This document shows positions 16,576-63,422 of a stretch of DNA of 64,000 bases, piece by piece (position 1 is the first letter of the stretch; every line of letters begins with the position of its first letter). The translations under genes were made by a program, and so were the position numbers. Under the pieces are notes generated by a model that saw only the letters and a list, made by a program, of their open reading frames with translations, made no database searches and was not told the origin of the DNA. Origin of the DNA: Homalodisca vitripennis (lineage: Eukaryota; Arthropoda; Insecta; Hemiptera; Cicadellidae); the NCBI RefSeq assembly GCF_021130785.1, contig NC_060208.1, forward strand, positions 54,974,501 through 55,038,500. The letters run 5' to 3'.

Positions 16576-16576
16576 T

Positions 16577-17528
16577 GAAAATATAAAATAGGTGGGAAAT
16601 TCTATTGTTGGCATTGTTTTATTAATAATGTGTAAAGGAGATTATGATGAAAACAATTTGCAGTCATAAATTATCTCCAAAATATGTGGAAAAACATTAT
16701 GGGTGACTATAAGACATGCACGATCTAAATCTAAATAACTTAGTTCCAAAATGACAAATTTTTGTCCTTGACTGTGCTGAGGTTCCTTGACTGTTCATTG
16801 TTTGAAGACTAGATCTTAATCCACTACCATCTCGGCAAAATACTATAGCTATTAGTATTTTTTTTTCTCAGTAATATGCCAATATATTCAAAACTAATAC
16901 ACTAAATTATTGGATTATAGTAAAACATTTAATTTTGATTTCTTTTCATTTATGAAATTTAATTGGTTCTATATTCACTTGATCTAATAAATATGCTTTC
17001 AATTCAAATAAAATTCAGAGCTTTTCATTACATCTCGCGAGCGCGCGAAGAAAATACTTTTTTAACAGCAATTATGAGAGGAAGGGTTGCATAAGACCAA
17101 AATCTAAAGTGATTGAAAACGAACATGTTCACGAATAAACATAGTGGGCCATATATAAAAAACCATTTATCCAATTAAATTTGTAAATATCGAATTACGG
17201 ACATTTAGAGCATTATTTGAAATTGATTTAATTTCTTAACAGCATGCAACTTTTATATGAATAAATTAAAAACCATATAGTTTGTTCTTGAAATTAGATA
17301 ATTTGTAAGAAGGCTAATATTCGATATCAAACTCAGACCAAAATAATTAATTGTAAGTACGTAAAATTAGGAGTTTATATAAAGCAAGTACGAAGACTCA
17401 CCGCCCAGCAGTGTGTAAAATCACACTCTTCGGTTATCAGTTGCAGGACAGTAATTCAAATTAGATATCACAGCATGTTTGAAATTCTACGTATCGCAAC
17501 GACCTCTCATGGATCTTGTTGTCCACAG
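16577..17528. other. AT-rich non-coding DNA upstream of the first visible CD36-family exon
   Basis: Apart from a CTCGCGAGCGCGCG palindrome-like motif near 17035, I see nothing. In the receptor gene this is presumably intron. A frame at 17479-17528 is open into the exon, but its translation does not match the family upstream of the acceptor at 17527-17528. Confidence 0.5.
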
Positions 17529-35360: not shown

Positions 35361-36391
35361 TCAATAAGTGGCAAGCACTGTGTTGGGCATTGGGACAATA
35401 ACAGGAGGGTGTAGTTGTGGTGGGGGTGGCGGGGGAACCATCACTGATGTGGTGGGAGGAAGCACAGCCATCGTCTCCAGTGACAAGGAGTTCACTGTTT
35501 GTTGTTGTTGTTGTTGCTGCTGTTGTTGTTGCTGTTGTTGTGTGATTGGACAACCGTCATCACCTAAAGGATCGACCTCCTCAATATCGTCCTCATGCAC
35601 CTTCAAATGTTCCACTAGGCTCTCTTTGCTTGCAAAACTCTTATCGCACTGTTCACAGATAAAGGGTGTTCCCGTGTGACTCCTCTTGTGGGATACGAGG
35701 TGACCCTTGCAGGTGAAGTCTTTCGGACACTGGTCACATCGGAAGGGTCTCTCCCCAGTGCCCTTGTTGTGTGAACGCTGGTGGAAGAGTAAGTTCCCCT
35801 TGAGCGGAAAGGATTTGCCGCACTCTGTACACGTGTAGGGACGCTCTCCTGTGTGACACCGCATATGGTTTATCAAGTGCTCCTTTTTGGCGAACGGCTT
35901 GGAGCAGATGTTGCAGTTGTGCTCAGTCTCCCCTGAGTGGACCCGTAAATGACTCGTTAAATGCTCCTTGCGTGTGAACGTCTTGCTGCAGAACTCACAA
36001 CGATGTGGTGACTCGCCTGTGTGTATCCTGATATGATTGGTCAGGTGTTCCTTCCTTGTGAAGAACTTCGAACAGTACGAGCACTTGTGGGGTGATTCTC
36101 CTGGAAGAAAACAGACCTTTCAGTATTTAGCTTTGTTTGAGTTTATTTTCAAGTTTATTAACAGTCAACCATTACAATAAAAATCAATAACAATATCAAT
36201 TACTAAGCATAAAAGATTATAAATATTAAATAAAATATTATGCATGTGACTTTTTAAATATGGAACAACTGTAAATTAAAATGAACCAAACTGCTAATTC
36301 TAAAACAAAACATGAAATTGAAATTTTTAAATTGGACTTTTTTTATTACGAATGGAATAATTGTGACTAGCGGATATTTTTAAACATTAAA

Positions 36392-36447
<56 letters not shown>

Positions 36448-39400
36448 ATTTTATCTACCACTGGCTTTGGTTTATGGTAGGATTAAGGAACTTATGTGAA
36501 AATTACTAATCGTAAGAAAATTTCTAATAATTTTTCTTTCCAGATTTTTACTTTATGTGAATTATTACCAATAATTCTACAGCCCAATCAAGGAACATAA
36601 GATTTTTTATTTACTACTTTCTTAGATTTGATTGTAAAAATTATGTTTGACCCATGACAGTTTAATGATGTACGAGGACTATCCATAAAGTAGATTACGT
36701 TTTGCTCTATAGCCACTAGGGGCGGCTATTTTGATGTCCAGGTGTTTCTCCATTCAGTGGCTATCCAGTCATCCTAGTGAGAGGAATGACACTCATGTTA
36801 TTTTGCAATAGCAGTTTAAAATGTATGACGCAATTAAAAAATCCCACGAGTTGTGAAGTATGGTCGGTAATATGGTTTTTGTTGGCTAAACACAATAAAC
36901 CAATTCAGATTTATCGCCATTTTGTAAAGCTTATAGGAACTGAAGGTGGAGTTTGTCAGTAGTGTATTAGATTTAAAACTGGCTAAACTAATGTGCATTA
37001 TGACAAACGAAGTAAATGGCCAAGCATTGTGACTGATGAAATTGTCTCTAAAGTCAATGAGAAGATTAAAGAAAACCGCTGATTCACATTAACAGAATTC
37101 TCACCTAGTTTTTCTCAAATTTCAAGAAGTTTGCTACATGAAATTGTTACACAAGAGCTACATGAGAAGTTAGGTTAACGTAAATTTTGTACAAGAAGGA
37201 AACCGAAAATTGTAACAGAAACCTATAAAAATCTGCGTATGGCTATTTCAGTGACATTTTTGGAGGTTTACGAAAAAGATGGTAACTTGCTGCTCAATCA
37301 AATCATTACAGGAGACAGGACTTGGGTAAAACACTTGAAATGCAAAATCAAATTACAGTCTATGGAGTGAAAACGCACACACTCCTCTGAAAAAATCAAT
37401 GAAATACATGCTAACATTGTTGGTACATAAGATAATGGGAACTTTTTTTGGGACAGGAAAGGAGTTCTTCTTGTTGATTTCTTAGAATGTAGTATAACCA
37501 TCAATTCTGCTGCGAAATATTGTGAAACCTTGCAAAAGTTACAAAACAAGCTTTGGGGAAATTTAAGTTGGAAAATTTTCTTTTTGCATGACAATGCCTG
37601 GCTATGCATAGCATATCGGATTCGAGAAGTCCTGCATGCTTTTAAGTGGAAGGTGTTTCCACATCTGCCTTAAAGTTCAGACCTTGCACCCAGCGACTAC
37701 CACCTGTTCCCAGCAATGAAGATTCGGCTTGGGGTGCAGCGCTTTGATGTTGACGTGGAACTGCGGGATGGTGTGACTACATGGTAGAAGTCTCAGGTGG
37801 TAGAATGTTATAACGGTGGAATTTCAAAACTAGTTCACCGCTATGATGAACTAAGTGCCTACATTTATATAGGGAAAAAGGTATTTTAACACATTGTGTG
37901 CGGCCGGCCCTCTAGTAGGCCTGACTGTAACTGTTTCTCCCATGTTTCAGTGTAGCTCAGCCACTCGTCCGAGACGGTTGAATCTTTGCCGCATTTTCCA
38001 GTGGTAGTCACATTCCGTTTCGGTTGTTTTTGTTCTTGGTTCCCGCGTTGCGGTCGGCCTGTTCTAGCCCCATTGTGTACTCTAATATTTTTGTGTTTTG
38101 TGTTGTGTTATTATGTAACTGAGGTGATTGTATATATTCTACCGTGTTGTCTGTAGTGTTATACTTATTGCAATGGATTCTGCAGTGCCTAGTACCTCCA
38201 GTCTCAGCACCTTTGTAAGTAGAAATGTTGAAGAGGAACATGACAGTGATGGCTCTGTGGACGAAGTTCAAAGACTTGTTGACGATTCGTCTACTGATTC
38301 TTCATCACATGATAGCGACGATGATGATCAGCATGAAATTGTGGGCCCGACTTGGAGTATTTCCACCGCAGGTATGCGCCAGATTGAATTTCTAAGAAGT
38401 GATACTTTGTTGGTGCCATTCCCGGGTAACGGTACTCCAATGGATTTCTTCAATCTTCTTGTTGACGATATATTTCTCGAAAGAATTTGTCAGTATTCCA
38501 ATTCTTATGCTTTCAACGAAGTTTATGCTAAACCTAACTTGACCCCTCATTCCCGAATTAATGCTTGGAAGGACATTACAGTGCTAGAGCTAAAAATATT
38601 TTTGGGAATTTTGCTGCACACTGGAACAATCAAAATCAACCATCTTCAGCATTATTGGAGAACGGATTATCTTTTTAACTTTAAGTGTTTTAGCACGTTC
38701 ATGTCAAGGGATAGGTTCCTGGTAATTTTGCATTGTTTGCATTTCTGTAGACACAATCCTAATGATAACGACAATGCTATTAAAAAAATCGAATTAGTTA
38801 TAACCTATTTCAACAACAAAATGAGGAGTGTTTATTACCCTCAAAAAGAATTGTCTCTTGACGAGGCAATGGTACTGTGGAGGGGTAGACTACATTTTAG
38901 ACAGAACATAAAGGGCAAGCGACATAAGTATGGTGTCAAACTATACACCCTAACAGAGCACCAGGGTTTTATATTGAGATTTCTTTTATATACAGGAAAA
39001 GCAGACAATGTTGTCTGTGGTGTTGGGCACACCGAAAAAGTGGTTCTCCATCTGTTGAAAGACTACTTGGGAAAGGGACATGCTGTATATATGGACAACT
39101 TTTACAACAGTTACTCCCTAGCCAGCAAATTACTCTCTGAGAAGACCTACTGCACTGGAACATTGCGTGCTGGAAAGAAACATACACCTATGGAGGTGAC
39201 ACAGTTTTCAAAAAAGGTGAAACAATTGTGCAGTACGCAAATGGAGTTATGATAGGCAAGTGGAGAGACAAAAGAAATGTTACGTATATCTCAACTGAAC
39301 ATGAGAACGATTTAGTAGATTTTGTAGACAAACGAGGTCGTGCAAAGAAAAAACCCCTCCCGATTGTCAAGTATAATGCTCACATGAGTGGAGTTGATCG

Positions 39401-42400
39401 CACCGATCAAATGATGGCGTACAACCCATGTGAACGCAAAACCATAAGGTGGTACAAGAAAATATTTATACATGTACTACAAATGATACTTGTAAATGCG
39501 CACAGCCTTCACAACATGAATCAACAAAAAATGTCTCTCTATGACTTCAGATTGGAAGTTATAAAAGGCCTTTTACCTCAACCAACTCACACCATTGAAA
39601 CACCTCTTTAACCCTTTGAGTGCCACGGCATATTTTCCCAAGTCATACGCATAAATTGCCGGAGCATTTCCTTCTGTTTTGCAAGCGTGTGTGGAAAAAA
39701 CTATATTAAAAAAAACTATTCAACCGATTTGAATATTTTTTTTATTTTGTGTGTTATAAAACAAGGTATTTTCCCATATAATATTATAATTTTATTTTTA
39801 TTTACACAAAAAGAATATAGGTTAAAACAAAAAACTAAAAAATGAAAAAAAAAAATAAATTTTAAGTTTGAACTAAAATTTTATTTATACAATTTTTTGT
39901 AGGATTAAGGAACTTATGTGAAAATTACTAATCGTAAGAAAATTTCTAACGTTAAATTGAATTAACGTTCTAAGGTTAACGTAAATTTTGTACAAGAAGG
40001 AAACCGAAAATTGTAACAGAAACCTATAAAAATCTGCGTATGGCTGTTTCAGTGACATTTTTGGAGGTTTACGAAAAAGATGGTAACTTGCTGCTCAATC
40101 AAATCATTACAGGAGACAGGACTTGAGTAAAACACTTGAAATGCAAAATCAAATTACAGTCTATGGAGTGGAAACGCACACACTCCTCTGAAAAAATCAA
40201 TGAAATACATGCTAACATTGTTGGTACATAAGATAATGGGAACTTTTTTTGGGACAGGAAAGGAGTTCTTCTTGTTGATTTCTTAGAATGTAGTATAACC
40301 ATCAATTCTGCTGCGAAATATTGTGAAACCTTGCAAAAGTTACAAAACAAGCTTTGGGGAAATTTAAGTTGGAAAATTTTCTTTTTGCATGACAATGCCT
40401 GGCTATGCATAGCATATCGGATTCGAGAAGTCCTGGATGCTTTTAAGTGGAAGGTGTTTCCACATCTGCCTTAAAGTTCAGACCTTGCACCCAGCGACTA
40501 CCACCTGTTCCCAGCAATGAAGATTCGTGTCACTTTTAAATATATACAATACGATTTTTTACTGTACTAGCCCTCGTATTTTAGTCATTGTGAATCATGT
40601 TACAAGGTAAAAGTTACACAATCTTGGTGTAACAGGTTTCGCTGCGGTTGCATGCAAAACTTTATGTTACAAGCTAATTTCATTCTGATAGTTAGACTAA
40701 ATGTGTTACTATGTCCCTTTTTTAAATTACGAAAGTATGTTTGTTTACAAATTTATTTATTCTGTGATTTTCTCATTGCCATGATTGTTAACCCTAAGAC
40801 CACCATCATTTTTAACCCAAAAACCATTGTAAAAACTACGGTTAGGTAAATCCCATGGAACCATCATCAAACTCAATGTTTATTTTATAAAAATGCTTCA
40901 TGTAAAATTTCAAGTCTACAGGTCAGTTTGTTCACAAAGTAACAAACAAAAAAACAGAAATAAAATTTGTCTATCCCCAAACTGAAATGCTTTGCTAACA
41001 CTGAGTCAATTAGTCCATAAACACTACAAATTACATCAATTTAAACTCAAATTTCAATTATTGATTTGTTTTACTTCAATGATTGTGTATTTCTAGGTCC
41101 TATCAAAAATACTGTGTATGCATTTTAAGATATATTTTACAAATTTCATTGTAATGTTGTTTTTTCTGATACTGGAATATTATTAATTGTCTGTAAATAA
41201 TGTTTCTCTCTCTATTATCCAAATACTATGTCATAAAATCACGTAACTTGTCTTCCACAGCCTCTTATGCCTTCTCTGACAGCTGATAGAACAGAACTAT
41301 GAGCCAATAAACTAGATAGAATCAAACATAGTTTTCATTCTTTCCCCTAGAACCATACACTCAGTTAAAATCTGCATCCGTTTTTCATACTAAGGAACAG
41401 TTGGATAAACAGATTGATTTAAAAGCTAATATTCCAACTTTGTGACTACAACCCCAGAGGATTATACTGTACATAACAATATACTTTCAGAGATCTGAAG
41501 AGCTTTTTATAAGCCAGTACTGAACATTTTTCCCCTTTCCTTCTTAAATTAGTTACCTTATTGGCCTACCAGTTTATAAAACCTTTGAACCGACAATAAG
41601 TAAAATAAATTTGTTACAAATTAGAATTTTGCTTAAAATTCTATTACTTTAGTTCTTGTTTTAGATTCTATGAAATGGAGTTTTTATATCGCCGTCCTAA
41701 ACTAGATTTTAAAAATTGTATAAACTTATGAATTGTTAATGTTAATTTTAATTTGTTTTGAATGCAAAATAAACATTGTTTTGCATTAAATATTTTTACT
41801 AATATAAGTTTTAAGTTACAAATAGTAATAACTTAAAAATAGCTAGTTCATTTGATAATTGATGTGTATTTAAAAATAATTATTTGGCAAAAACTATTTT
41901 ATTTCTTTTGTTTTATTATATTCAATTTTTCTCAAGGGAATATATTAATATTAATTTTGTTATTTTAAGTTATTTCCAAATAATGGATTTATTTGGTTGA
42001 AAAATCATTTTTTTATATTTCTGTCATCACCTTATTAGAAAAACTAAGAAAGAAAAAAACAACCTTTTATTCTCAAAGACGTTTCCAAAAACTATCAAAC
42101 TCATTTGAATTCCACTGAAACAGCTCGAAACCTTCCTCCATCAAGTATTTTGAATTATTCCATTTGTATGAAATAGCTTAACTTGCACCATTCAAAGAAA
42201 TGCTAACACATATTAGTTTTTTAATACAACATAGCTGAAAATTAGTGTATCTTTCTCCAAGATATGTTAATATAAAATAATATATACTCACAAGTACTAC
42301 CACCTTTCTAACTTTGCACTTACATTTAAAACAACCCTTGTAACAACAGACAATGTCACTGTAGCAAAGCTTTACTATTGTTGGAAGAAACAGATGGTTT

Positions 42401-45400
42401 ACTGCATGGTCCACTAACCTGTGTGCTGTCGTATGTGATTTGTGAGGTGTTCTTTTCTCGTGAAACTCTTGGTGCAGTAGGAACACTTGTGAGGTGACTC
42501 TCCTGTATGCTGTCTTACGTGGTTCACCAGGTGATCCTTGCGCGTGAAAGCCTTTGGACAGAACTGACACTGGAATGGTGTCTCCCCCGTGTGTTGTCTT
42601 ACGTGATTCACCAGGTGTTCCTTGTGACAAACACACATCATTATGGTACACATTTCCAAATGTGAGCAGTTCAATCATGTATATCACCAAGAATCCGACA
42701 GACTGTTCTTAAAATAGTGTCGTTGTCTCTATCAATCCGTGAAATAACTCTTGATGGAAAGGTGCCTTTAACCCTTTGAGTGCCAACGTCCGATTTTACC
42801 GGACTTTCGGGAAAAAGTCACTAAAAATTGTAACCTTTAATATTTTCAATTAATATCATATTGAAATGTTTGTGAAGAATCGTTCTTTTCAAAATAAATT
42901 GTTATAGTACACTTCCGGTCAAACTTTAAATTATGAAACTCACATATAAATATTTTCGGTTGCCATAGCTACCAGAAACAATGTGACAATAGTTTCTTAA
43001 AAGTTGTATAACTTATTCATTATTGAAGATAATAATATAAATTTTTCAAGATTTACAGACAATTGCATACACTTTCCAGTGATATGGACTAAGAAAAGGA
43101 TATGAATTTTTTGGTCATAATAATTTGGTTGAAAAATGAAATTAAAAAATATTTTTGAATTTTTTTTTTAGTTAAGTTCATTTTTTGGTATTCCTAAATT
43201 TAGTGTTATGGTAACTTTGTTATTTTATGTTAATTAAACAGAGTTTTCAGAGAAAAATAAAAAAAGAATCATGTTGATAGCTTATTAAATCAACTCGCAT
43301 ATAAACATTTTTGGTTGCCATAGCTACCAGAAACAATGTGACAATAGTTTCTTAAAAGTTGTATAACTTACTCATTATTGAAGATAATAATATAAATTTT
43401 TCAAGAGTTACAGACAATTGCATACACTTTTCAGTGATATGGACTAAGAAAAGGATATGAATTTTTTTGGTCATAATAATTTGGTTGAAAAATGAAATTA
43501 AAAAATATTTTTGAATTTTTTTAGGTATGTCCATTTTTGGTATTCTTAAATTTAGTGTTATGGTAACTTTGTTATTTTATGTTAATTAAACAGAATGTTC
43601 AGAGTAAAATAAAAAAAGAATCATGTTGATAGCTTATTAAATAATCGAACTGTGAATTTTTTACTAAAACCTTGCAAAATGCCTGCAAAAGGGCTGGCAC
43701 TTTTAGGTACACCCACTAGAAAAATACCTGGCACTTTTCAGTATACCCACTCAAAAAATACTTGGCACTCAAAGGGTTAAACTTGGTACATAGGTTCCTT
43801 TTGCCTAAAGAAGAACTCCATTGATTTTGAGGTCAAAAGTTTGAAGATCAGTATTCTGCTTGTCTGTCTGTCCAATAATTCTTGATAGAAAAGTCCTTAC
43901 CTTGAAAATTGATGCATATGTTTGTCTTGATCTAAGGAAGGAAGAACTGCATTGATTTTGGGGCCAAAAGTTTGAAGATCAGTATTCCGTTTGTCTGTCT
44001 GTCCAATAATTCTTGATAGAAAAGTCCTTACCTTGAAAATTGATGCATATGTTTGTCTTGATCTAAGGAAGGAAGAACTGCATTGATTTTGGGGTCAAAA
44101 GGACAAAAGGCTGTCTGTCCATCTGTCTGCCTGCTTGTCCATGCAATAAATCTTTTATTACATTTTGTTGAGTCCTCCAATACTCTATTTATATTTTTGT
44201 ATGTTTATTTTATCACATTTAAATAAGATTCTAAAATTGATAATGCCATATAAGAAAATTTTTATATAAAAAATAGAAGTGAGATACAAGAGTGACTAAG
44301 GGACCTCCACCTCACAAAATTTATAAAGATAAATATAATTATTTAAAATGACATCACGCTACTTTCCGTGGTCGGAAAACCACCTGACATTATTGTATTT
44401 CTACATGTGATATAAACCAATTTTCAGTAATGTCATTTATACTAAATGAAAGCCTAATATCTGTACTCTCGCTTAACTATCTTTGTAATAATTTTAATTC
44501 AGCAGTGATCATGACACAGCTGTTTCAAAAGTAAACATTTTATTGGTTGCTGCATTATCAGATGTGAGAATACCCGACTCAGTCTGAGTTATTCATTATT
44601 TGGTGCACTTGTTTATTGGATGAAATAGCTAGTTTACCAACCAAATACTTCATAAAAACTTATTGTTTTGACAAAAGAAAAAAATATTTATACCAGTAAA
44701 TAATGTACCTTCCGTGTGAAACTCTTGGTGCAGTAGTTACACCGGTGGGGGGACTCGCCTGTGTGTTGTCTCACGTGGTTCAGCAGGTGTTCCTTGCGGG
44801 TGAAAGTCTTTGAGCAAAAATCACATCTGGAACCCATCGTTGATATTCCATATATTTCAGGGTACAGTAGAGTTAGTTTGAGTAACACTAAAGGCTCTCA
44901 ATCAAAAACCTTGCAGCTCCTTTTCAACTTTGAATTATTTAACTCTATTTAAAAACTAATATGTGATTAACCAAAACTTCAAAAACATACATTAATCTGA
45001 ACAAAATCAACAGTATTTCAGGTCTCCCCTGTTACTGTCTTGAAGTAATAGCGTTAGAATTAGGGCCAGTATTATTTTATTAGTATTTAATCATCTTTTA
45101 TCTTTATTAGGATGGATTTCCACACTGCTCAGTTTATTTTATATTGATATCAGATCTAATCAGAGGACCTTGATTTAACAACATTATTTAGTCAGTGAAT
45201 TTTGAGATGGAACCAATTTTTCAAAAAAAAAATATGATTTACCAATACTGACACTGCTAACACAAATCTGAAAAAATAACAAAGAGATAGAGTTTGCAGT
45301 GTTTGTATTATACATATACAATAATTTTCTCACTTATTTTCATGATTAATAAACATATTATTCTCTATTAAAGAAGTTAACACCCCCTCTCAAAACAAAT

Positions 45401-48400
45401 GCCAATTCATAATTTTAGAATTTTATTAATACAGACTCAGTTCCAATTTGTTCTTTACATTCAGTTTTATGACACAAATGTTGTTTTTCTTTAATTAGAA
45501 TTAAATTTATTGTAAACTAGCCGTTACCCGCGGCTTCGCACGCAATCTTTAGAATCAAAGTCTTTATATTACTTAGTAAAAGCACTTATGATGTAATATG
45601 ATGGAGTTCTATGAAAAGTTTAAAACGTAAGTAGGCATACGTCAAGTAGATATTATTTAAGTTCATGGTAAATAATATCAGAGTTTAATTTAATGAATAT
45701 ATCATGTTTTGCACGTGGAAGAGCATTTCTGGTTCAAATTAATTATATTTCCAACGTCACAGCTCAGGCTGCATTGTTACCCCAATCAAGAAAATACAAT
45801 ACACATGTCTAGAAAAATTACTTCGGTCAAAAAGCTTCTATTTCTAGAGTTTGCCTTGACCTGTTGAATAAAAAAGTATACTTACGTATAGGACCAAGAT
45901 CCCTACTACGATTAAAAAGTACTAACTGCAGACCATTTAAATTCACTTACTATATCACAATTCAGCTTGCCGTATTGCCTCGATCAAGATTCAAGATCTT
46001 TATTGGTCTTTAAACATATTCAACAGTGCAATAGACTTCGTCAAGTTACTAAAATATTCTAAACTAAAACTAAAACAAACAATGCAGACTCTACCTACTC
46101 AATCAGCCTACCAGTAAATATATAGATCTATATAATTCATAACAACAATAACCAAACAACCAACAGATCTACATATATAAATTAACAATAATAAATAAAT
46201 AACTATTAAGATGTTTAACATGGATACAATTTTAAAACTCAATAATATTAAAGCTGAATAAATCAGTTTTAACTGAATAAACTAAATAAAACATTGAGAT
46301 ACAAAATTTTAAAAAATATTGTTGTGGTATCAAAATTTAAGAATTCATCAACACAATAAAATATATTAACTTTTAACCAGCACCTCAAAACTGTTTTAAA
46401 TTTGACTAAGGATACAGATCTAGCATAAAGGTAACTTATTAAACAATTTAATTTTCATAAAAAGATGACTGCATTTTGTTTTGGTTAATTTAACTGGTAA
46501 GAGTTGTAACAAATGTTTTGTTCTAGTAGGATAATCATGAATATCCTGCCTAGTTGTAAATGTTTCAAGTTGTTCCTTTACACTTCTAAGACAGTAGAAT
46601 ATGTACATATTAAGAATAGTCATTATTTTTCGTTCCTTAAAAATTGTAACACAGGTCTCTCTTTTTGAAACATTTTTCATATCACATAATGCATTTTTTT
46701 CCATTTTAATACTCTTACTGCATTACTACTGTTCCCCCATAGAGTTATACTATAACAAGTGTGAATGGAAAAATGCATAATAGGAGGCTAGAAGCATATC
46801 CATAATTATACAATGTTACAATTTACTCAAGAGATAGACTACTCTAGATAATTTTTTACACAATTGATCTATGTGATGTTCCCAACTTAATTTGCTGTTA
46901 AGGTATACCCCTAATAGTTTTACAGGTTTACTAACTTCATAATTCCTATTTAAAGTAAACAGTATTTTCTCAGTCTTTTGATAATTTACTACTACGTAGT
47001 TTGTCTCAAACCATTCCATAGCCGATTTTAATGCATGGTTTTCTTCCATAATGAGATTCTCATAATTTTCACTGAAATTAAAGAGTGTGGTGTCATCTGC
47101 ATATAATACTGAGGAACATGGTATATTAAACGAGAAATCATTAACAGCAACAACAAACAAAAGAGGGAAATAAGGAGTGCCGATGGCCGAGCCGAGCGGT
47201 CTAAGTCGTTAGACTTTGGGTCTGAGTTAGAGATAACACAGGTTCAAATCCTGTCTGTGACCAATGCACTTATTATCAGTACTATTGACCTTGTACTGTA
47301 TCGACGCTCCCCCTTATTCTGCTTGATAAGATCCTTGCACAAGCCAGTGGCCTATGAGGACGGACAGAATAAGGCTTAAAAGGGGATCGGCCTCTTCTTT
47401 TTTTTTTAAAAAAAAAGAAAAAGTCCTACCCATTTCCTATGTACTTTCGGTATAAGGGAGAAATCCGTATTAACGTTACGTGACATTCCAAAATAAAAGT
47501 TTTTTGTTATGTTATTAATTTAGTATTAATTTCTCTGTTTTACCATAAGCCACTGTCACAGAAGCCCATCAGTTTAAAGTAACGTATGTAAAAATATTCA
47601 TGACTTAGTTCATTAAGGTTGGTTTTATAACAGTGTTTAAATAATATTATAAAATGCATTAGATGATTTAAATTCATCACTGGTGCAATCTGGAGTACAA
47701 TTTTGATATTAACTTTTTATTTACTATCTTTACTATGTAACTATCTATGTATCTTCACAATACTGATCAAGCACTCTTTACTTAATATTTGATCAAATTT
47801 AATTGTAAACAGATGTTTCAGCCATTTTGTCGACATAAAACTGAAGCTGTGAACAGCTGTTTAGTGCCAGTTTAATTTGGATTATGAAACGTAAAAACTA
47901 CATTTTTTCTGAATTTTAAAATATTCCAACTTTTCTTATATTTTGCTTCATAAAAACCTTCCTCGGATTTCAATGGGACATTTCACAAAAAGAATTAACC
48001 GAATTGGTCCAGCCTTTCTTGAGATTAGCACTTAGCAACACATTTAACGATTCATTTTTATTTATAACATTACATTAAATACAAACACAACAACCAACTA
48101 ACTAGTTTACCAACTTAACTTTCACCAACTAAAAAGAAAAACATTACTAATTATCTCAATACTATCATCTTTTCTCACCAATGAAACTCACCCTACATAT
48201 TATGACTACCAGCACCAATAATTCCCCCAGGAATTGATGCAAAACTGACTAGCAGCCATTACTGCTTGTTACAGAGATGTTGCCACAAAAAATGGGCTCA
48301 AATGTCAGTCTACAAGCCTGCCTGCCAATAGTATTAGAGAACCTTGATTGTAAATTATTTATACTTAAAAAGACCATATAAATATATAATTTTTACATTA

Positions 48401-52379: not shown

Positions 52380-53140
52380 TTTATACAATAACAATAACGT
52401 TTCATGGAGTTTCCAACAGTTTTAGCACTAATATGGGTCTTAGACAAGGGTTTATACTTAATCCTATGTTGTTTAGTATATATTTGTAAATGATATTCCG
52501 GAGGTACTAGAGGGTGCCTATCACTTTGACGGTTACAAGGTGAATTTTTTGCTTTACGCAAACGACATAGCAGTTGTAGTGCCCATTGCGACATGTCTAC
52601 AGCACATAATTGAGCTATTGAAAGTATACTGTGAAATAAGGAACTTAGGAATTAATCTGAAAAATAAATACTAAAATTATAGTGTGTAGAAACGGCGGCA
52701 AATAAAATTCTTGATTTTGATCTGGGTGACAAGAGAGTTTATAACAGACAATTATGGAATTGAGGTTGTGCCCTGGGAAATTAAAGCAAGGGTAGAACTT
52801 ATACATTTAAATTATATACCATATAATTTACAGGAAAGTGTTTTTCATTTTGTTGCGAGGTTTCCTATCTTATCGGTATTGATAAAATATTGGTTTGAAA
52901 GATAATCGTAGGTACTAGGAGGGTGCCTATCACTTTGCGTTTACAAGGTGAATTTTTTGCTTTACGCAAAGACATTAGCAGTTGTAGTGCCCATTGGACA
53001 TGTCTACAGCACATAATTGAGCTATTGAAAAGTATAATGTTGAAAAGGAATGTTAGGAATTAATTGAAAAATCTAATACTAAATTTATAGTGTGTAGAAA
53101 CGTCGGCTCAAATAAAATTATTGATTTTGATCTGGGTGAC
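52380..53140 (+). pseudogene. LINE reverse transcriptase fragment, with a second degraded copy
   Basis: The first part, with one frame change, reads GLRQGFILNPMLFSIY, LNDIPEVL, then LLYANDIAVVVP, the reverse-transcriptase motif with D to N at the YADD position. A near-copy of 52505-52732 follows at 52913-53140 but with many single-base insertions and deletions. The two are separated by 180 bp. The second copy runs straight into an A-C15 simple repeat. Confidence 0.75.
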
Positions 53141-53240
53141 CCCCCCCCCCACCCCCCCCCCCCCCCACCCCCCCCCCCCCCCACCCCCCCCCCCCCCCAC
53201 CCCCCCCCCCCCCCACCCCCCCCCCCCCCCACCCCCCCCC
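53141..53240. repeat. Perfect 16-bp (A C15) microsatellite
   Basis: A occurs at 53151, 53167, 53183, 53199, 53215 and 53231, exactly 16 apart, with only C between. On the other strand it is (G15 T)n, a strong quadruplex-former. A related tract, G16 T G5, lies at 54051-54072 in the opposite orientation. Confidence 0.95.
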
Positions 53241-54699
53241 AGAATTGGAATCAATAATAAAATGAAGCCATCCCTTAGAGTTTCTGCTACACTATTAATC
53301 AGGGACATAGAGATGACGTTTTGGGCTAAGTAACTTGGGCGAGTCACTAGGAATTATTGCATGCTAACAGACTAAAGACATATGAAGACCCACAACATTG
53401 ATATCCGTGTGCATTCATAGTTTTATTTAGAAAGGTCAACGAAGTGAGGCAAAACTAGAGTTCTGTCACTAACATCACTCCCTTGACAACCCAGCAGTAA
53501 GTAATTTGACCAAACCGCTATTCAAGTAATACAGGCAAAAGCTGTTTCACAATATCAGTGACACCTGATTCAGCTTCATCCTAACGTTTTTTGGAAGATA
53601 GTTATTCCGTAATATTTTTCCTTGGTTTTCAGTATCAGTTTTGCGAGTGCAGTATTGATGTCGAGATTTAGTACATTAATCTTTGATAGCCTAACTAAAG
53701 TAGCAGTTTGTAACTGTTTAATTTAGTTTTTAACCTGAAATTCCATTAAGCAAATTAATGATGGCACCTAGATGAAAACCCTTCTTACATCCTACTTGCA
53801 TACATTATAATATGGCAAAGGTGGGCAAAACAACATAACAAACAGGGTCCAACACAATACAAACCAAACTTTTTTTAAATAAAAATATTTCTAAATTTTA
53901 AACATATTTTAGTGACAAATTATGAAAAACTTTGTCAAACAAATGTCAATTTACAATGAGGGAAAAATTGTTTTTTTTTTGGGAAATTCGGATTGTGGTG
54001 GGTTTTTTGATACTTAAAATGAAATGTAACTAATGGATTTTGCTAACCAAGGGGGGGGGGGGGGGGTGGGGGATATAAGGCCACAACCGTAAGGCATTTT
54101 TTTGGAAGGTTTAAGTATTAAACATCTTTTAGATTATGCAAATTCTGTTTTGTTGTCCATCAGAGTTAAATTCACTAACTTTTACATTTTAAAAACTAGG
54201 TAAGGTTTTTTAAACAAAAGGTAACATATTTGCATAAGCAAATATATCTATAGGATTAATGATTTCCACTAAAAGACAATTTGAAGAAATTGTTCCATCT
54301 TCAAATTTCGCTATATACTACTCTTACCATCATCGTGTTCTGGTGTCTTCTTTTGATATTTCCCATTTTATGGATTTTTTCTTCACTTGGAAGTAAAATT
54401 GAAGAGACGACCGAGTTTTCTCTCAATCATCCCACAAAGTGTTTTTGAGAGCAATTTAGGAAATGATCCCCAATTTTTCAAGGGCTTTGGACTCTACATC
54501 CCTCCCTTGTCCATTCCTCAATCAGCATCATATTTGTGATGGTGTGTAATTTGGTTTAGTTACTTGCCTGATTTACCGGTGTCTGTACTATAAGCAACTT
54601 CGCCTTTACCACAACAGCAGTTTTGTCTTTATTTTTATTCAAAATCATTTGTTTTGAGGAATTGAACTTACAATAGTGTCAATTGCCTGGATTCTGTTA
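53241..54699. other. Non-coding DNA with a poly-G tract
   Basis: Apart from the G16-T-G5 run at 54051-54072, no feature is supported. Confidence 0.4.
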
Positions 54700-55124
54700 T
54701 ATCTTTTCAGATATACATTTTTTCAAGTATCCCGGTGGAAGAAAATAGTGCCCCACCGTGTGGAAGGTTATTTCGATGCTTGAAATTTGTTCAGCGGCAT
54801 CAGACATTTCGCTAGCATAGGAATAAGAATAATTTTGGCCACCACAACCATCCGAAAAAACACAAGTTTTATTTTTCCATCAAACTTTTCATTTAACAAG
54901 TGATGATAGAGACATGAGGTCATTGAACTGGAGTTTTTTGCAACTGACTCATACCATATGCAGCAGAGGCCATTTTCTTTTGTCAGATTGGTTTTAGAGT
55001 GGCCATTTATAACAGTAAAGTTGTAAAATGAATACTGCCTACTAAAATAAGGTAATTGATCAGGCACTTTAGGCAATAGTAAATTCTTTCGGCAGTCAAA
55101 TGATAAAATTATACACATTGGAAA
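54700..55124 (-). pseudogene. TE-derived DDE-nuclease-like protein fragment
   Basis: The minus-strand frame from 55124 down to about 54840 reads SRQYSFYNFTV and GLCCIWYESVAKNSSSM, the 'YNFxV ... W.E..a.r.s.eI.S' block found in transposon-derived proteins of many insects. After a frameshift it continues DGCGGQNYSYSY, the family's SD.CGGQN motif, and then HTVGHYFLPPGY, like its RGHS.lPPDR block. The Helitron-like element at 55125 has cut its N-terminal side. Family assignment is from remembered motifs. Confidence 0.55.
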
Positions 55125-55903
55125 TCTATATATATAAAAATGAAACTGTTCGTGTGTAACAGCATCAATCACAAAACGGCTGGACGGATTCGCCTAATTT
55201 TTTTTTTAATTTGTTCGTCTTGATCTGTAGAAGGTTATAGGATACTTTTTATCCCTTTCCCGATTCAGGATTCCGCCCCACTGGTTACAGAAATACCGTA
55301 AGAAATGCATGTGCAGCAAACATATGTTATTAAGTGAAAGAGTCTTTTCAAATTTTTAATCAGCTGTTTCTTTGTAAACATATATAATGCGACAAAAAAT
55401 ATATTTATATATAATTTAATTACTACACTTATAGTTTTAAAGCATAGAGTAAGCTTAAGAGAAACGACAAATTTTGTTTAAACTGTTTCTGCAATCACTG
55501 TTAAACATAGACTTTACTATCCAGATAATACAATTCAAATTTGACGTAAAAATTCAACTCTTTAACTGCAAATATTTATTTAATATAAACCTATGCTCAT
55601 GCTTGATCAGAAGAGCAATGCAGATATCATAATTACTATCTTACGTTGGCTACAAATATAAAGAATGTTATAAAATCAAACCTTAGTTGTTTTTTTTGAC
55701 AGAAGTATCAGGAATGTGGTACATAACCTTCATAATGCGCCCAAGAAGCTCACGAAGGAACGACTATCAATTATCTCAGCAATGTTTAGAATGTGATAGA
55801 AAATGAATAAGTGAATATAATGTACTGTTTTCAACGGGAAATTGCGTGCGAAGCCGCGGGAAACTTATTGAAATGCGCAGCGAAAGCGCGCCGGGTCCGC
55901 TAG
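55125..55903 (+). mobile_element. Non-autonomous Helitron-like element
   Basis: It starts TCTATATATATAAAAATGAA after A and ends GGGTCCGCTAG before T, with GCGC-loop-GCGC about 10 nt before CTAG. No inverted terminal repeats, no target duplication and no protein. It is a close relative of 15651-16575, lacking that copy's ~185-bp internal extra segment. Confidence 0.7.
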
Positions 55904-56500
55904 TGTGGGATAATTTAGAAAAGTAATTTATGCAAAATACTTTTAAACAGTTGGCGTTTCCCCAGGACCAGGAGTGAGATTGGTCCCTACAGCATCCTCC
56001 ATTATAAAACAGTACTAGCACACAAAATTTTCATTGCAATCACAGTTAGAAAAGCTAAAGTGTAAGGGCTTTAAACAGTGTTTCAACTTTCCATCCACCC
56101 GGTCAGACTCAAGCAGAATAAATTTTGGTGAAGAGGTAAACACTTGCTGAGCATGCTGGGAAGTCACATGACTGAAAACGAGCGCTCTCATTGGCTGAGA
56201 TGGATGCTGTGGAATTTGAAACTAAAGATGGATAAAACTACGTTGGATCTGGCAGTTTTTGAAACCAAGGCGCATTATCAACATTGTTTTACAGTGGGAT
56301 GTATTGGGTATAGGTACAAAATAATGGTTTATTTGAATTTGGCCTGTTTGAAACTATGAGATAGGATGTATAACTCAATTTGGACAAAAAGTGGATGTGG
56401 CAGGGTTTGATTCTAGGCGCCTCAAACATCAGAGTTCATTAAAACTCATGAAGTGTAAAATTGTGTTAAATTTGTAAATTTTCCACTGTAAGACATGAAA
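55904..56500. other. Non-coding DNA; possible continuation of the split DDE-like fragment
   Basis: Minus-strand sequence near 55960-56020 loosely resembles the fragment left of the Helitron-like element. No border or motif settles it. Confidence 0.25.
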
Positions 56501-56509
56501 ATTTTAATA

Positions 56510-56770
56510 GTTAGATGTTAAGTAGTTTATATCATCAAAGAAAAGAGAAAGAGACGTGGGCCAAGTACAGAACCCTGGGGCATCCCTCGGGTGATAGGTT
56601 CTTCACTTGGAGTACCCCTTGCCAATCCTCTTCAGAGAGCTATGACTTTGAAACTATCCACTTGAAACAGCAATCAGAGATATCCTACTTCTTCAATTTG
56701 ATCAACAAAAGAGTGTGAAACACACCTTTTTCAAAGGCCAATGTTGCAAAAGTCCAATAAAATAGGAGGA
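56510..56770 (-). pseudogene. LINE reverse transcriptase fragment, minus strand
   Basis: On the minus strand, about 56600-56520 reads RGMPQGSVLGPRLFLFF followed by DDINYL, matching the LINE reverse-transcriptase block GVPQGSVLGPLLF...INDL. Upstream, broken by frameshifts, is the AFEKGVFHTLLLIKL-like preceding motif. No catalytic aspartate pair remains. Confidence 0.75.
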
Positions 56771-57960
56771 ATTTTATTAGAGCGTATACATGGAGTTAGT
56801 TGTATTGGAGGTAAAGACAGAGGATTATAGCAAGAACAATCTGAGGCTGGTCAAATTTTTCCAGCCAAAAACAAAAGAGCCATGAACAGATACCGCGTAG
56901 AGAAACCTCTGAGACACAACATTTCTGTACAAGGTAAGCTGAGTGACCAAGTTTGCAACTTCAGAATCCTGTTCTCTGGAGATCTAGTAATTTAAAGTAA
57001 ATATAGAAAATTCTCCAAAAAATTTGCTTTGCTTTTTGGGTTTTAACTCAAGAGTTATTGCATTGTAAATTGAGTTTTAGGGCATTTGCCTGCCGGCTGT
57101 ATTTATGTCAAATGTTATATTAAACCCATTTAAAATTTACAGAATTGAGGTTGTTCAACAGATTTTTTGAGGTTGTAAATAATTTTTTTGGTGTTATAGG
57201 TGTTCATATAGTGTTGAATAAATTACCAAAATGTATTAATTTAATAAATATTCATTTGCCTAAGCTGCCTTTACGATACCGATTCTCACAATTTGATCAC
57301 ATTTTGTTGTGTACAGACATCCACGTTATATAGTATAAGAAACTTGTATGTCTCCACATCAATATTTATTTGGGATCGATTTTTGTTGACTATAAAACAT
57401 CAAAGTCTTGATTATCCAGGCATTAAACTAAACCTCTCCAACTAAAAAGTTGAACTTTAAAGGGGATGAATCATGGTCAGGATTTGCATGGTCCAGCTAT
57501 TCACCACCATATTTTCCACAGGTCACAATAACTAAATGGAATAAAAAAAATAATATAGAATAACATGCCAATAATTTGAGTTAAAAGTATGGGTTCACAC
57601 ACACGGTTTTAGTTTTTGATGAATAAAGATGGAGGATGGAACTTGAGACACCTTTCTAGGAAATAGAAGTGAACTTTTTAGTCACTGTTACAACTTTGCC
57701 CATTTCCCTAAAATGGGATTTTGGAGGGCGGCTCAAAATTTTTAAATGTAAAGACCCATTAAGTGACTCTCACTTGAAAGGTCTTGATAAGAAGAAGAAG
57801 AACATTTCCTTACAAAACTCAAATCTGTTTTGCAGTTATTGCCTCCCTTATCTTATCAGTTTTGAGGAAGTCCAGTATCATGTTCAGTTTTCTGGTTGGA
57901 ATTAATAAAGTTAAGACATGTTTTTGTGATACTTAAAAATATAAACACTCCATTTTCTGA
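56771..57960. other. AT-rich DNA, nothing recognised
   Basis: The upstream coding exon(s) of the zinc-finger gene should lie in this direction if the local orientation is correct, but none is visible. Confidence 0.4.
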
Positions 57961-57964
57961 ATTC

Positions 57965-58270
57965 TGATTTCTGATTAAATGAACAACAGCGTATTATGAT
58001 CCTGATGATCCGAGGCTACAGAGACTGGGCGAGATCTTATGATGAAGTAAGGAATTTATTTAATGACATTTATTCCAATCGAAACCCTATATCTAAATCA
58101 GGAGTTAAAAAAACAATAAAATAGAAAACAAAAAATTCCAAGATACGCGCAGTGTTAAAGATCACCCAAAACCTGGACGACCAAAATCGGCTACAAAGAA
58201 GCATTATCACTTGACGTTTTACAGTGTGTTGTAGAAGATCCTGATGCCTCAACAGGAAATGTTTTCTCAA
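57965..58270 (+). pseudogene. HTH N-terminal fragment of a mariner/Tc-like transposase
   Basis: Readable as LNEQQRIMILMIRGYRDW-like, then RNLFNDIYSNRNPISKSGVKKT, then (frame change) SVKDHPKPGRPKSATKK: the helix-turn-helix module with the 'GRPR' hook of mariner/Tc1-related transposases (DUF4817-type proteins). No catalytic domain follows. Inactive fragment. Confidence 0.65.
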
Positions 58271-58688
58271 ATATTAGGTATATATCAAACATTAGTGAGA
58301 TTTACTGCTGAACATTTGGTGTTCTTTGAATGTTGAGCAGTATATTTTATTCTTATTAGGATAATATTCAAATCTATATAGAATTTTGGAAATTTATTTC
58401 TGTAAGTTGTTATCAACCATCTCGGTTAGATTTTCTCTTAGTTTTTTTAATTATGGTTCTGCCGCAAGCTGTTTTTGTTGAGAAATGTATTTGTTTGGAG
58501 CCTTTTTAATGTTTCATTAACTTCAGCTGGAGTCGGAAAGTGTAAGTATGAGTTGATTAGGTGCCCAATCGATTGGAGATATTATTGTGCTGCAAACCTA
58601 CATTTAATATATTGCTCTCTTAAAATGATTATTATCACTTATTACTAATTTCTAAATGTTGAATAATATATATCTTGATACCTTTCAG

Positions 58689-61600
58689 CCAGTGAATGTG
58701 GATGACCTGAACCAATTGTTGGCGTACCATGAGGTATTCGGGAAGCTACAGGGTGGAGGTGTGGCTGGAGTAGGGGTAGGAGTAGTGGAGGGTGAGAGTA
58801 CTGCTCCACCCCCGCCAAGAGTCCTGAGTCTGACGACAGTCCTGCCTCGCCACCTGGTGCTCATCCCTGCGACCTTTGCGCCAAGGTCTTCCCCTACCGA
58901 TACCAGATGATTGTACATCGACGTTACCACACAGAGAGAAAACCCTTTCAGTGCCAGGTAATTTGTTTCAGATCTATAGCATTCCTCGTAATATGATGGG
59001 AGTCCTATACAAATTTTAAAACGTAAGTAGGCATACATCAGGTAGTTATTATTTAAGTTCATGTTAAATAGTATCAGAGTTTAACTTAATTATTATATCA
59101 TGTTTGACACGTGTAGGAGCATTTCTGGTTCTAATTAATTATATACATAACGTCACAGCTGAATCTACCTTGTCATCCCGACCAAGAAAACACAAATCTC
59201 GCATCATACAGGTCTCGGAAACTTACTTCGGTCAAAAAGCGTATATTTCCAGTCCTTGTCATATATTTTAGGTCTAAGATATTTCCAGTACCAGTAGGGT
59301 TTGCCTTGTTGCTCTGACAAAGAAAAAATATATATACTTACGTAGGACCAAGATGCCTACTTCGGTTAAAAAGTGCCTACTTAAGACCGTTTAAATTCAC
59401 CGTAATGTCACAGTTTAGCTTGCCATATTGCCTCGATCAAAATACTATATAAGTTCGATTATCTAGTTCTCGGAAATCTATTTTGGTCAAAATTGTGTTG
59501 ACATAGTTGAGTTTACCTTGTTGGATGAAGAAAATACACACATAAGTAGGACTGAAAAGCCTATTACGACCTAGGGTGAAGTCCTACCTACTTCTTATGT
59601 ACTTTCGGTATAAGGGGGAAATCCTTATTAAGGTTATGTAACATTCCAAAATAATCGTTATTAAAGTTTTGCGTTACACTTGTTTTTGGGACAGTAGCCA
59701 GGGAAAGAATGAATCGTTGAGGCATATTAGTATTCATTTCTCTGTTTTTCCATAAGCCTTGTTAAAATGTAATATCATAATGTCAAGGAAGCCCACCAGT
59801 TTAAAGTAACTTATGTGAAAACATTCATAACTTTGTTCATTAAGGTTAGTTTTATAACAGTATTTAATGCATTAGATGATTTTAATTCGTCACTGGCGCA
59901 ATCTGGAGTAAAATTTATGTATTAATGTTTTATTTACTATCTGCATTACACTACCGATCAAGCACTGTTTACTTATTATTGATAAAATTTAAATGTAAAC
60001 AGATTTTTCAGAAAGTTTGTCGAACTATAGCTGTCAACAGTTGTTTAATGCCAGTTTTATTTTAATTATGAAACGTAAATTCAAATACAATTTGTTCTGA
60101 ATTTAAAAATATTCCAGGTAACTTTTGTTAACTTTTTCTTCATAAAAACCTTCCTCGGATTTCAATGGACATTTTACAAAAGAATTAACCGAATTGGTCC
60201 AGCCGTTATCGAGATTAGCGCTTACCAACACATTTCGCCATTCATTTTTATTTATAAGAAGATTTCTTTACTAGCATTCCTTTGGTAAGAACGCTTAATA
60301 AAAATGAAACTTTCCTACCTGGCACAATTCAGAAATACATAAATGAGCTTCCCGATGCTGCCAAAGTTCAGTTATAGGACAAAAGGTTTACTGTAAGCGA
60401 CGTGAAATTTTAATGTTAGCGTACAAACAAAAAAAGTCACAATAAAAACCAGTTTTTTTTTTCTTCAAACTCTGATGCAAGGAAAGTAGAACATACAAAA
60501 AGAAGGCATGATAGAATATCTACAGAAAAAACCTGCAATGGTTTGTAGATTATAACAAACATATGGGTGGAATAGATTCATTCGATATGATGCTGTATGC
60601 ATATCTCGATGAAAGAAGAACGTTGAAATATTGGGAAAAGACTGTCTTTAACACATTTTCAAGAATAGTATTGAACTCTTACATTATTTATAAGAAAAAT
60701 AAAATGGACAAAAACCAAGTTCACACTATAAGTTTGTTGTTAACATAATTGACACAGTCATAGATGAGTGGTTTAACGTGCAACCAGAAGCAGGTATAGG
60801 GTCTGGTGGAAATAACTGCAAATCAAGGGATCTTGAGAAAACTACCAGATAAAAAAGTAAAAACCTGTATTGGGTGTGTACCAAGAGTGGAACAGAATAC
60901 TACAAAAAGAAAGGAAAAGATCCGGAATGTTGTGTATGCAATGTGGAGAGGGCTGACTTGAGGTGCAGTTCCCAAACATGTATGCAAAAACATTGTGTGC
61001 CTTTTTTATGCCTGTATATAATGTATGTACTTTTTGGAAAAAATGGAAATAAGTATGAAGCCTATATTTCGGAGGCGAGAAATGAAAGTACATAATATGT
61101 TGTTCACTGACTTTGTTTTAGTATAGTGTAGACTACCAGTAGGACTACAGTAAAATGCTTTTTTTTGATTATGTAAAAACTGTTGTGTAACTATTTTATT
61201 GCTAGGAAAAATTCTAAAATTATTTTTTTCCACATTTATAACATTATTACAAATAAAAAAAATTTGTTTCCATAATATATTTTTTGTATTTAATTTATTA
61301 CAAAAACAACAAAAGTAAAAAAAATTCTTATATACATTTTTCAATTTTTACATGCTGCAAGTATCATCCTCTGCGGTATTCAAAGGGTCAAAACTATTAT
61401 TCTAAATAATACTTTCAGAAATTTGTAATAAAGAAGGAATACCTTCTATCATTAAGGTCTTCTATAATCTACTAAGCATTTCATAATTTGAATTAAAAGT
61501 ACATTTATTTGCTTGTCTTAAGATTAATCACTGTATTTTGAATATTCTCCTAAACAATAATATGCTGTTGCAGGTATGTGTGGACGATCGTTTGAGAACA

Positions 61601-63166
61601 GTGATGAACTAAGTCAGCATGGAAAGAGCTGCCATCAGGAGAACAACTCCATGCTGACCTGTCAGGTCTGTGCTGAGTTAAAAAACAATATTTACCAAGC
61701 TATTTATCACTTGTGTTTTGAATTTGCTTGGAAAATTTACCCAGGATTTGTTGCAAGGTTTAATAATAGTAATAATAGTACAGAATTGCAGTCTTGTAAA
61801 AAACACAAACACCAATTGTACAGTAGTCTAAGATTCAGTTTACAAATTATTCCAATAATTGTGTAGTAACATGTTGATTTAAGCATTTGCAAGCCAGTAA
61901 ACTTAAGAAGCCAAGCAAACTATGTATAAAGAGAATTAATTTAGATTTTTCAATAATAATACAACAACGTATTATTATTAACGATTGATCTTAAAAACAT
62001 TATTAATATTGGATACATAAGTATTTTTCAGACTATTTTAGCGAATTATAACAAGTGATGAAGGTATAAAATGAAAACAATGAAATTATGTGGATGATTA
62101 ATTAGAAATAAAATTATGTGGATGATTAATTAGAAATAAAATTGTGTTGTTATAGACATTAAAGAGATGATACCAGCAGTCATTCTCTTGTATATTGTTG
62201 CACCTGATATAAGTATTTGTTGTTTTAGCATAAATGATCTAGTTCTACTTTGGAACCTTTTGTTACAATACTTTAGCCTAGGCTCAGTTGATTATTTGTT
62301 AGCATGAAAAAAAAATGCCATAACTGAATCAAATGAAAAGTTCAGGTTTTAGCTCAGTTTGATCTCGCAATATTCTATTGCCAGCCAGAAAGTAAAATGT
62401 TGCTAGTCCCAGATGGGACGTCACTAACACTTCTCCCTTATTATAATGTTATATCCTTCCCAGCAGACAACAGAAAACTAGTGTCAGCCTCCTGAGTGAT
62501 AGGCATCAGTACAAAATCTGTTGCTAGATATGCACTATTATAGAACTAATAATTCTTGTCTATGTAGAAATGAAGTTTCAATGCAGAATAAAAATTTTAC
62601 AGATGAAATGAAAATACAAATATAATATGTAAACAATAGTAATAATGTCTGAGAATTTTGTCTTTTGATTCAGGCCAGCTTTTGAGATGCGTTCGTAAAT
62701 AGTTTGAGCAATTCTTATTTTAATTAATGCAGAGATTTAAATATTTATTAAAGACTGAAATATCAGTAAAAAAAGCAGAATTTCAATGAATGAATATTTA
62801 AAATTCTATGATAAACTCATTGTTTGTATCTGAATTTTTATTATTCTAAATTTTATTTGATTTCTTTTAGTACCCATAACAAAAGTAATACAGTAAGTAA
62901 CATGTATGGTAATATCAACCTCCCCTTTGTCTGCAGGTATGTTTCCACGTGTTTGCGAGTGCAGGGAGTCTGGGAGCGGCATGCGCGGCGTCACTGCCTT
63001 GACAAACCATACCAGTGCGCAGTATGTAACAAGGCATTTGGACGTAAAGAGCACTTGGAAAACCATAGCCGCAGCCACTCGGGGGAGACCCCGTACCGCT
63101 GCCAATACTGCGAGAAGAGCTTTAGTCGCAAGGAGCACATGGTCAACCATGTTCGGAAACATACCG
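58689..63166 (+). CDS. crol: crooked legs-like C2H2 zinc-finger factor, 5' half (fingers 1-5), with frame errors
   Basis: Exons 58689-58957, 61574-61665 and 62937-63166. The first encodes VNVDDLNQLLAYHEVFGKL, a crol N-terminal motif, a linker, and finger 1 (CDLCAKVFPYRYQMIVHRRYH). The second holds most of finger 2; the third holds fingers 3-5, ending HMVNHVRKHT plus one G. These are crol fingers 1-5; 6-18 are on the opposite strand at 49792-35361, with matching phase. Frame breaks: about one base short near the C run at 58810-58830, two too many near TATGTGTGG (61576), and one extra G in GGGAG (near 62970). Either this half is decayed, or the consensus is unpolished. Upstream coding exon(s) with the start codon are not visible; the introns hold a Helitron-like and a piggyBac remnant. 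Confidence 0.88.
58980..60266 (-). mobile_element. Helitron-like element, minus strand, 3'-truncated
   Basis: Uninterrupted relative of 45517-48075: 58990-59460 and 59577-60255 align with its two halves. It has the family 5' start (TATAAATAAAAATGAA-like on the minus strand near 60262) but lacks the CTAG end. It begins 22 bp after the splice donor of zinc-finger exon 58689-58957. Confidence 0.6.
60270..61392 (+). pseudogene. Degenerate piggyBac-like transposase, C-terminal part
   Basis: Readable: PGTIQKYINELPDAAK (the GT-R-NR-LP block), HMGGIDSFDMM (third catalytic aspartate and partner), KYWEKTVFNTFSRIVLNSYIIYKKN, then a cysteine-rich stretch, CCVCNVERADLRCSSQTC, corresponding to the C-terminal RING-like domain. 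Stops and frameshifts break it. The right end reads GGTATTCAAAGGGTCAA, a decayed version of GGCACTCAAAGGG-TTAA. It is a different lineage from the element at 37886, older, and lies in a zinc-finger gene intron. Confidence 0.8.
61393..61573. other. Intron sequence before zinc-finger exon 2
   Basis: AT-rich intron ending in the acceptor TGTTGCAG at 61566-61573. No element recognised. Confidence 0.5.
61666..62936. other. Intron sequence, nothing recognised
   Basis: Between zinc-finger exons 61574-61665 and 62937-63166. AT-rich, with a short direct duplication (AAATTATGTGGATGATTAATTAG) near 62085-62135. Confidence 0.45.
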
Positions 63167-63422
63167 GTAGGTCACAGTTAACTTAGTAAATGTTCTTTGT
63201 AGATTGATCTAGAATTATACCCTTAACCCTTTCTACCCCAACAGTCTAGAGCTTGTTTTCTTTTACCAGATCAATTTGTGGGACAAAACTGCATATTTAG
63301 TATGTTAACCCTGAATAAAGTATTTCTTTCATTTCTGAAAAGCTGAAGATATTTATATCTGTCATCAATAAAAAAGAAATTTATGTTTTAAACCATAAAT
63401 CTTTAAATAACTTTGTCGCATT

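Follow-up and report, generated by a model that had tools for sequence, protein, structure and literature searches.

The gene crol encodes a C2H2 transcription factor with 18 zinc fingers in Drosophila (PMC10325914). A gene whose exons lie on opposite strands has been described elsewhere. At mod(mdg4) the acceptor exons are found partly on the opposite strand (PMC12692577). In an eight-species insect survey, mod(mdg4)-like trans-splicing is the only conserved case, and some of its events join opposite-strand exons (PMC4667647). Here we analyse a 64,000-base stretch of the Homalodisca vitripennis genome (the window, C2:54974501-55038500, contig NC_060208.1), in which crol is written with five of its fingers on one strand and thirteen on the other. 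We conclude that this split is very likely a scaffolding error affecting one ordinary crol gene, pieces of which were probably put together with incorrect order and orientation. The opposite-strand arrangement is likely not a real biological feature.

To obtain the exon layout, the window was scanned for open frames and C2H2 motifs and then read exon by exon. It places fingers 1-5 on the plus strand (58689-63166) and fingers 6-18 on the minus strand (49792-35361), distributed over seven exons (E1-E7, Table 1). All six donors are GT and all seven acceptors are AG. Calculated from the exon ends, the introns measure 2,616 and 1,271 bases in the plus half and 4,698, 2,088 and 6,318 bases in the minus half. 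An earlier note on this DNA had proposed that one crol gene is split into opposite-strand halves, and exon placement, finger order and splice phase confirm this. The same note described a break inside a linker. The phase fit on which that description rested is correct, with E3 ending in phase 1 and E4 completing the codon (HTG-DTP), but the break itself is nothing special: E3 holds the first base of this codon and E4 the other two, as at any phase-1 intron boundary.

The order of the fingers is that of crol, as the note had also claimed. Optimal one-to-one assignment to the 18 fingers of Asbolus verrucosus crol (P0003) returned 1 to 18 in order with a score of 1886; none of 20,000 random orders scored above 1510, and swapping the two halves gave 1156. 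Taken singly, 16 of the 18 fingers matched P0003 best at their own rank (the exceptions being 10 and 18). This agreement in order is not chance. Ahead of finger 1, the VNVDDLNQLLAYHEVFGKL motif is as in P0003 at 20 of 20 positions. A protein search with the full query scored 7,936 candidates (those with the most common words), of which 5,804 reached E <= 0.001. Among the 120 matches listed, P0003 was the sole protein with 100% query coverage (69% identity); moth rows P0001, P0002 and P0004 scored at least as high as P0003 with coverages of 84-96%, and below these top rows the matches were mostly unrelated zinc-finger proteins. With residues 1-170 as the query, 33 of 214 candidates scored E <= 1e-30. 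Fingers 6-18 alone (7,918 candidates scored) found mostly unrelated zinc-finger proteins among the best 120 of 1,193 matches. No near-identical match over most of the query appeared among the protein matches listed. Viral contigs gave no match to a 31-base pattern from one exon. On these sequence comparisons we identify the gene as crol. It shares with the crol of, for example, A. verrucosus the 18 fingers in order, the VNVDDLNQLLAYHEVFGKL motif, the linkers and an SVAKYWVLTNLFPGPIPQ exon that lies elsewhere on the contig; it differs in that the assembly spreads its exons over both strands in a disturbed order, and in that our genome search did not find the MDVRTADGSIVKIS exon.

The DNA between the two halves is interrupted by a 100-base tract in which the unit C15A recurs with a period of 16. 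The base before it (53140) is also C, and this C is present in the first of two near-copies discussed below. The piece that carries fingers 1-5 (53241-64585, 11,345 bases) has a C15A tract of about 100 bases on each side. Four such tracts lie in the window and its right flank, with pattern matches of 101, 100, 101 and 101 bases (the odd end base was assigned to the flank), and their 500-base flanks show no similarity to one another. The window contains eight runs of C or G of at least 8 bases, all within 53140-54066. Across the whole assembly (2,304,811,887 bases in 14,901 contigs), a 64-base C15A pattern produced 13,326 forward and 0 reverse matches. A control with the pattern read backwards produced 12,946 forward and 0 reverse matches, contained in the same tracts. 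Since the backwards pattern necessarily matches these tracts, the strand bias is evidence and the control is not. The tracts are unlike a natural repeat because they occur on the forward strand only, and a natural repeat would lie on both. When the 100 rows listed were grouped by eye into 41 tracts, 23 had two overlapping matches, 18 had three and none had any other number, as a fixed tract length near 100 predicts. From the match-per-tract ratio in these rows we estimate roughly 5,500 tracts genome-wide. The tracts are probably gap filler between assembled pieces, marking unsequenced gaps.

Two natural origins for the tracts were considered and rejected on the same forward-only count: a 16-base minisatellite, and a poly-C target of Crol itself. 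Drosophila Crol binds poly(G)-rich DNA (PMC10325914). If the base calls are right, a G16 run at 54051-54066, 0.8 kb to the right of the filler, would be a curiosity beside the crol exons. Further to the right, two irregular C-rich tracts of about 100 bases resemble altered filler. The 16-mer string occurs in nine papers; among the five listed, none is on genome assembly, judged by title. As a guess, a period of 16 bases would be consistent with storage at 2 bits per base in 32-bit words.

The fillers suggest how the present layout may have arisen. The crol exons would have been on separately assembled pieces, with the C15A tracts standing for the gaps between them. The scaffolder would then have turned the small piece with fingers 1-5 relative to its neighbour, and this pair of pieces would likewise have been misplaced or turned with respect to the 5' exon. 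In the insect itself, crol transcription would run one way and splicing would be in cis. A wrongly turned contig, which the earlier note had ranked first, is thus supported by the one-strand tracts at both borders of the plus piece and by the copy number of the tested regions. A genome-wide DNA search with the region of E3 (62900-63300, fingers 3-5) gave one match, and a search with the region of E4 (fingers 6-8) found its own place and one 47-base match inside E7. Neither tested exon region showed a second copy in the assembly. The exons are on both strands as assembled, and filler-bordered pieces make the written order unreliable. The locus resembles scaffold misorientation as met in draft genomes in that gaps flank a small piece, reading frames are broken and a contig end is error-rich; it differs in that C-rich filler takes the place of N in its gaps. 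A single stretch of 5,000 N stands at 165501-170500 in continued window coordinates.

Further signs of faulty assembly are seen in the sequence itself. Relative to the protein family, frame breaks occur in all three plus exons (591 coding bases) and in none of the four minus exons (1,328 coding bases, open throughout). Those in E2 and E3 are firm under canonical splicing; the one in E1 is less firm and falls in unconserved sequence. If breaks were spread evenly over the coding bases, the chance of all three falling in the plus half would be 0.029. On the other side of the filler, two tandem near-copies (52489-52730 and 52898-53140) align by blastn over 249 columns with 12 mismatches and 12 gap openings, and the second copy runs straight into the filler. 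This stretch (52489-53140) looks like an error-rich, uncorrected contig end. In comparison, the 12 listed repeat pairs with both copies left of 45 kb show 0-3 gap openings against 4-36 mismatches. Two pairs with one copy in the plus piece have 6 mismatches and 10 gap openings (55251-55708 / 15779-16183) and 8 mismatches and 3 gap openings (55709-55905 / 16371-16577).

The 5' end of the gene probably extends the disorder. The earlier note had called VNVDDLNQLLAYHEVFGKL an N-terminal motif, a description that does not hold: the motif is internal, with 117-439 residues ahead of it in 18 database relatives, of which some are partial. A genome search with the N-terminal region of Photinus (15 candidates scored, 2 kept) recovered E1 and a 5' coding exon match, SVAKYWVLTNLFPGPIPQ, at C2:54821109-54821186 on the plus strand. 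This match spans 26 residues at 85% identity (E 1e-4) and lies about 212 kb left of E1. The signed order on the contig would then be +U (the 5' exon), -E4..E7 (fingers 6-18), +E1..E3 (fingers 1-5). A single inversion, as proposed in the note, does join E1-E3 to E4-E7, but it does not bring the 5' exon to the correct strand and side; because that exon lies on the plus strand, to the left of both other blocks, two inversions are needed.

Several observations weigh against a scaffolding error or narrow what can be said for it. The misorientation is inferred and was not seen directly. An overlap between the ends of neighbouring pieces, which would prove the flip, was not found; the comparison gave three matches of 43-61 bases at 75-81% identity, none of them at the ends. 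No left end was found for the piece with fingers 6-18: C2:54894501-54974500 and window positions 1-53140 contain neither filler nor N. The filler may have been written after scaffolding, during assembly, or else in the store that served the sequence. Low accuracy is not uniform across the plus piece, in which the older repeat pairs 59579-60257 / 47421-48067 (70 mismatches, 14 gap openings) and 58988-59443 / 45593-45990 (62 and 8) look ordinary. A MAFFT alignment of a slightly larger stretch of the near-copies, with 290 aligned bases, showed 64 mismatches and 7 gaps. Because blastn and MAFFT differ here, the split between indels and substitutions is not robust. The putative 5' exon is a single 26-residue match at E 1e-4. 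The MDVRTADGSIVKIS exon (MDVRTADG) was not found: a genome search with the next region of Asbolus (8 candidates scored) gave only E1, which means that one or more exons are absent or have diverged too far. For the rest of the N-terminal region, C2:54894501-55238400 held nothing convincing except E1, and weak matches at E 0.47-4 were taken as chance.

Could the arrangement nevertheless be real? Chromosomal inversions might have cut crol and left its halves as separate or dead genes. The halves do lie on opposite strands, and the frame breaks in all three plus exons could be decay. This explanation is very unlikely, and the note's suggestion of a real inversion that breaks the gene finds no support in the sequence: both borders of the plus piece coincide with one-strand C15A tracts and not with contiguous sequence, and the position of the 5' exon match would require two inversions. 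The fingers themselves also argue against long decay. In the frames chosen, the CCHH ligands are intact in all 18 fingers, including the five of the plus half. The ratio of the window branch to the beetle-ant distance is 2.18 (95% interval 1.19-4.92, 105 positions) for fingers 1-5 and 2.50 (0.79-10.0, 84 positions) for fingers 6-9, so the relative rate is alike in both halves, with wide intervals. On the similar rate, the intact ligands and the single match of the E3 region, we reject the plus half as a paralogue or pseudogene. A search for flanking inverted repeats that could have mediated an inversion within the window found 28 pairs, of which the 25 shown were all one AT microsatellite pair; no inverted pair of at least 90 bases was listed in the window self-comparison.

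Other accounts take the layout at face value at the level of RNA or protein. Two opposite-strand transcripts could be joined by trans-splicing as at mod(mdg4), with which this locus shares the exons of one protein on opposite strands and compatible splice sites. The donor and acceptor of the two halves are indeed phase-compatible, but any intron of one gene gives such a fit, and with the fillers no new mechanism is needed to account for the layout. In 13 of 18 related proteins examined, finger 5 continues straight into finger 6. In mod(mdg4) of flies and moths, shared 5' exons are combined with many alternative 3' exons that have promoters of their own; for crol here, one 3' exon set is seen in the window, and filler tracts lie at the borders. 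No further copy of the E4 region was found in the genome; diverged alternatives were not sought. We consider strand-crossing trans-splicing, which the earlier note had listed, extremely improbable, as a tract read as filler interrupts the DNA between the halves. Just as little credence is due to the bolder version in which crol is truly scrambled over both strands, its mRNA is rebuilt by trans-splicing and an ancient five-finger form served as the stepping stone. A different proposal treats the halves as two independent genes, one for a short five-finger protein and one for a separate 13-finger protein. In its favour, 4 of the 18 related proteins end 1-23 residues past finger 5, at the very exon end where the window splits (P0028 is without this region), and reading past the E3 donor (63166-63186) meets a stop within a few codons. 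These four, P0238, P0239 and P0242 (source label lgn, taken as read-archive contigs) and P0240 (Photinus pyralis, UniRef), appear to be shortened products of a gene from which the full set of fingers is made as well. The 13-finger half follows a splice acceptor and starts within a linker; in its frame, the sequence immediately upstream contains a stop but no start codon. We attach next to no probability to two separate genes.

Table 1. Features of the crol locus and its surroundings, in window coordinates (continued beyond 64,000 into the right flank)
Feature	Position	Strand	Description
E1	58689-58957	+	internal motif VNVDDLNQLLAYHEVFGKL and finger 1, with an apparent, less firm frame break between the two
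E2	61574-61665	+	finger 2; frame break near start
E3	62937-63166	+	fingers 3-5, with a frame break in the first of them; phase-1 donor
E4	49792-49525	-	fingers 6-8
E5	44826-44709	-	finger 9 and first half of finger 10
E6	42620-42419	-	remaining half of finger 10, fingers 11-12
E7	36100-35361	-	fingers 13-18, poly-Q tail, stop
C15A tracts	53141-53240, 64586-64685, 103725-103824, 160476-160575	+	probable gap filler
Irregular C-rich tracts	115210-115330, 191570-191680		resemble altered filler
Transposase open reading frame	38128-39611		Pfam DDE_Tnp_1_7; frame broken once
Transposase with direct repeats	37172-40527		two flanking 555-base repeats, 99% identical
Reverse transcriptase-like fragment	46816-47208	-	Pfam RVT_1 match just below cut-off
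Reverse transcriptase-like fragment	52489-53140		judged by eye only

The window also contains mobile-element sequence (Table 1). The transposase, which we take to be of the piggyBac type, is flanked by its two direct repeats, and reverse transcriptase-like fragments occur at two further places, one of them coinciding with the near-copies beside the filler.

For the crol family, the short relatives together with the stop beyond the E3 donor suggest a possible conserved five-finger form of the protein, which may be made by intron retention or from an alternative last exon. For this genome, a false lead for strand-crossing trans-splicing is removed. The C15A filler probably masks gaps from scans for N, and gene order and orientation across C15A tracts are not to be trusted in this sequence.

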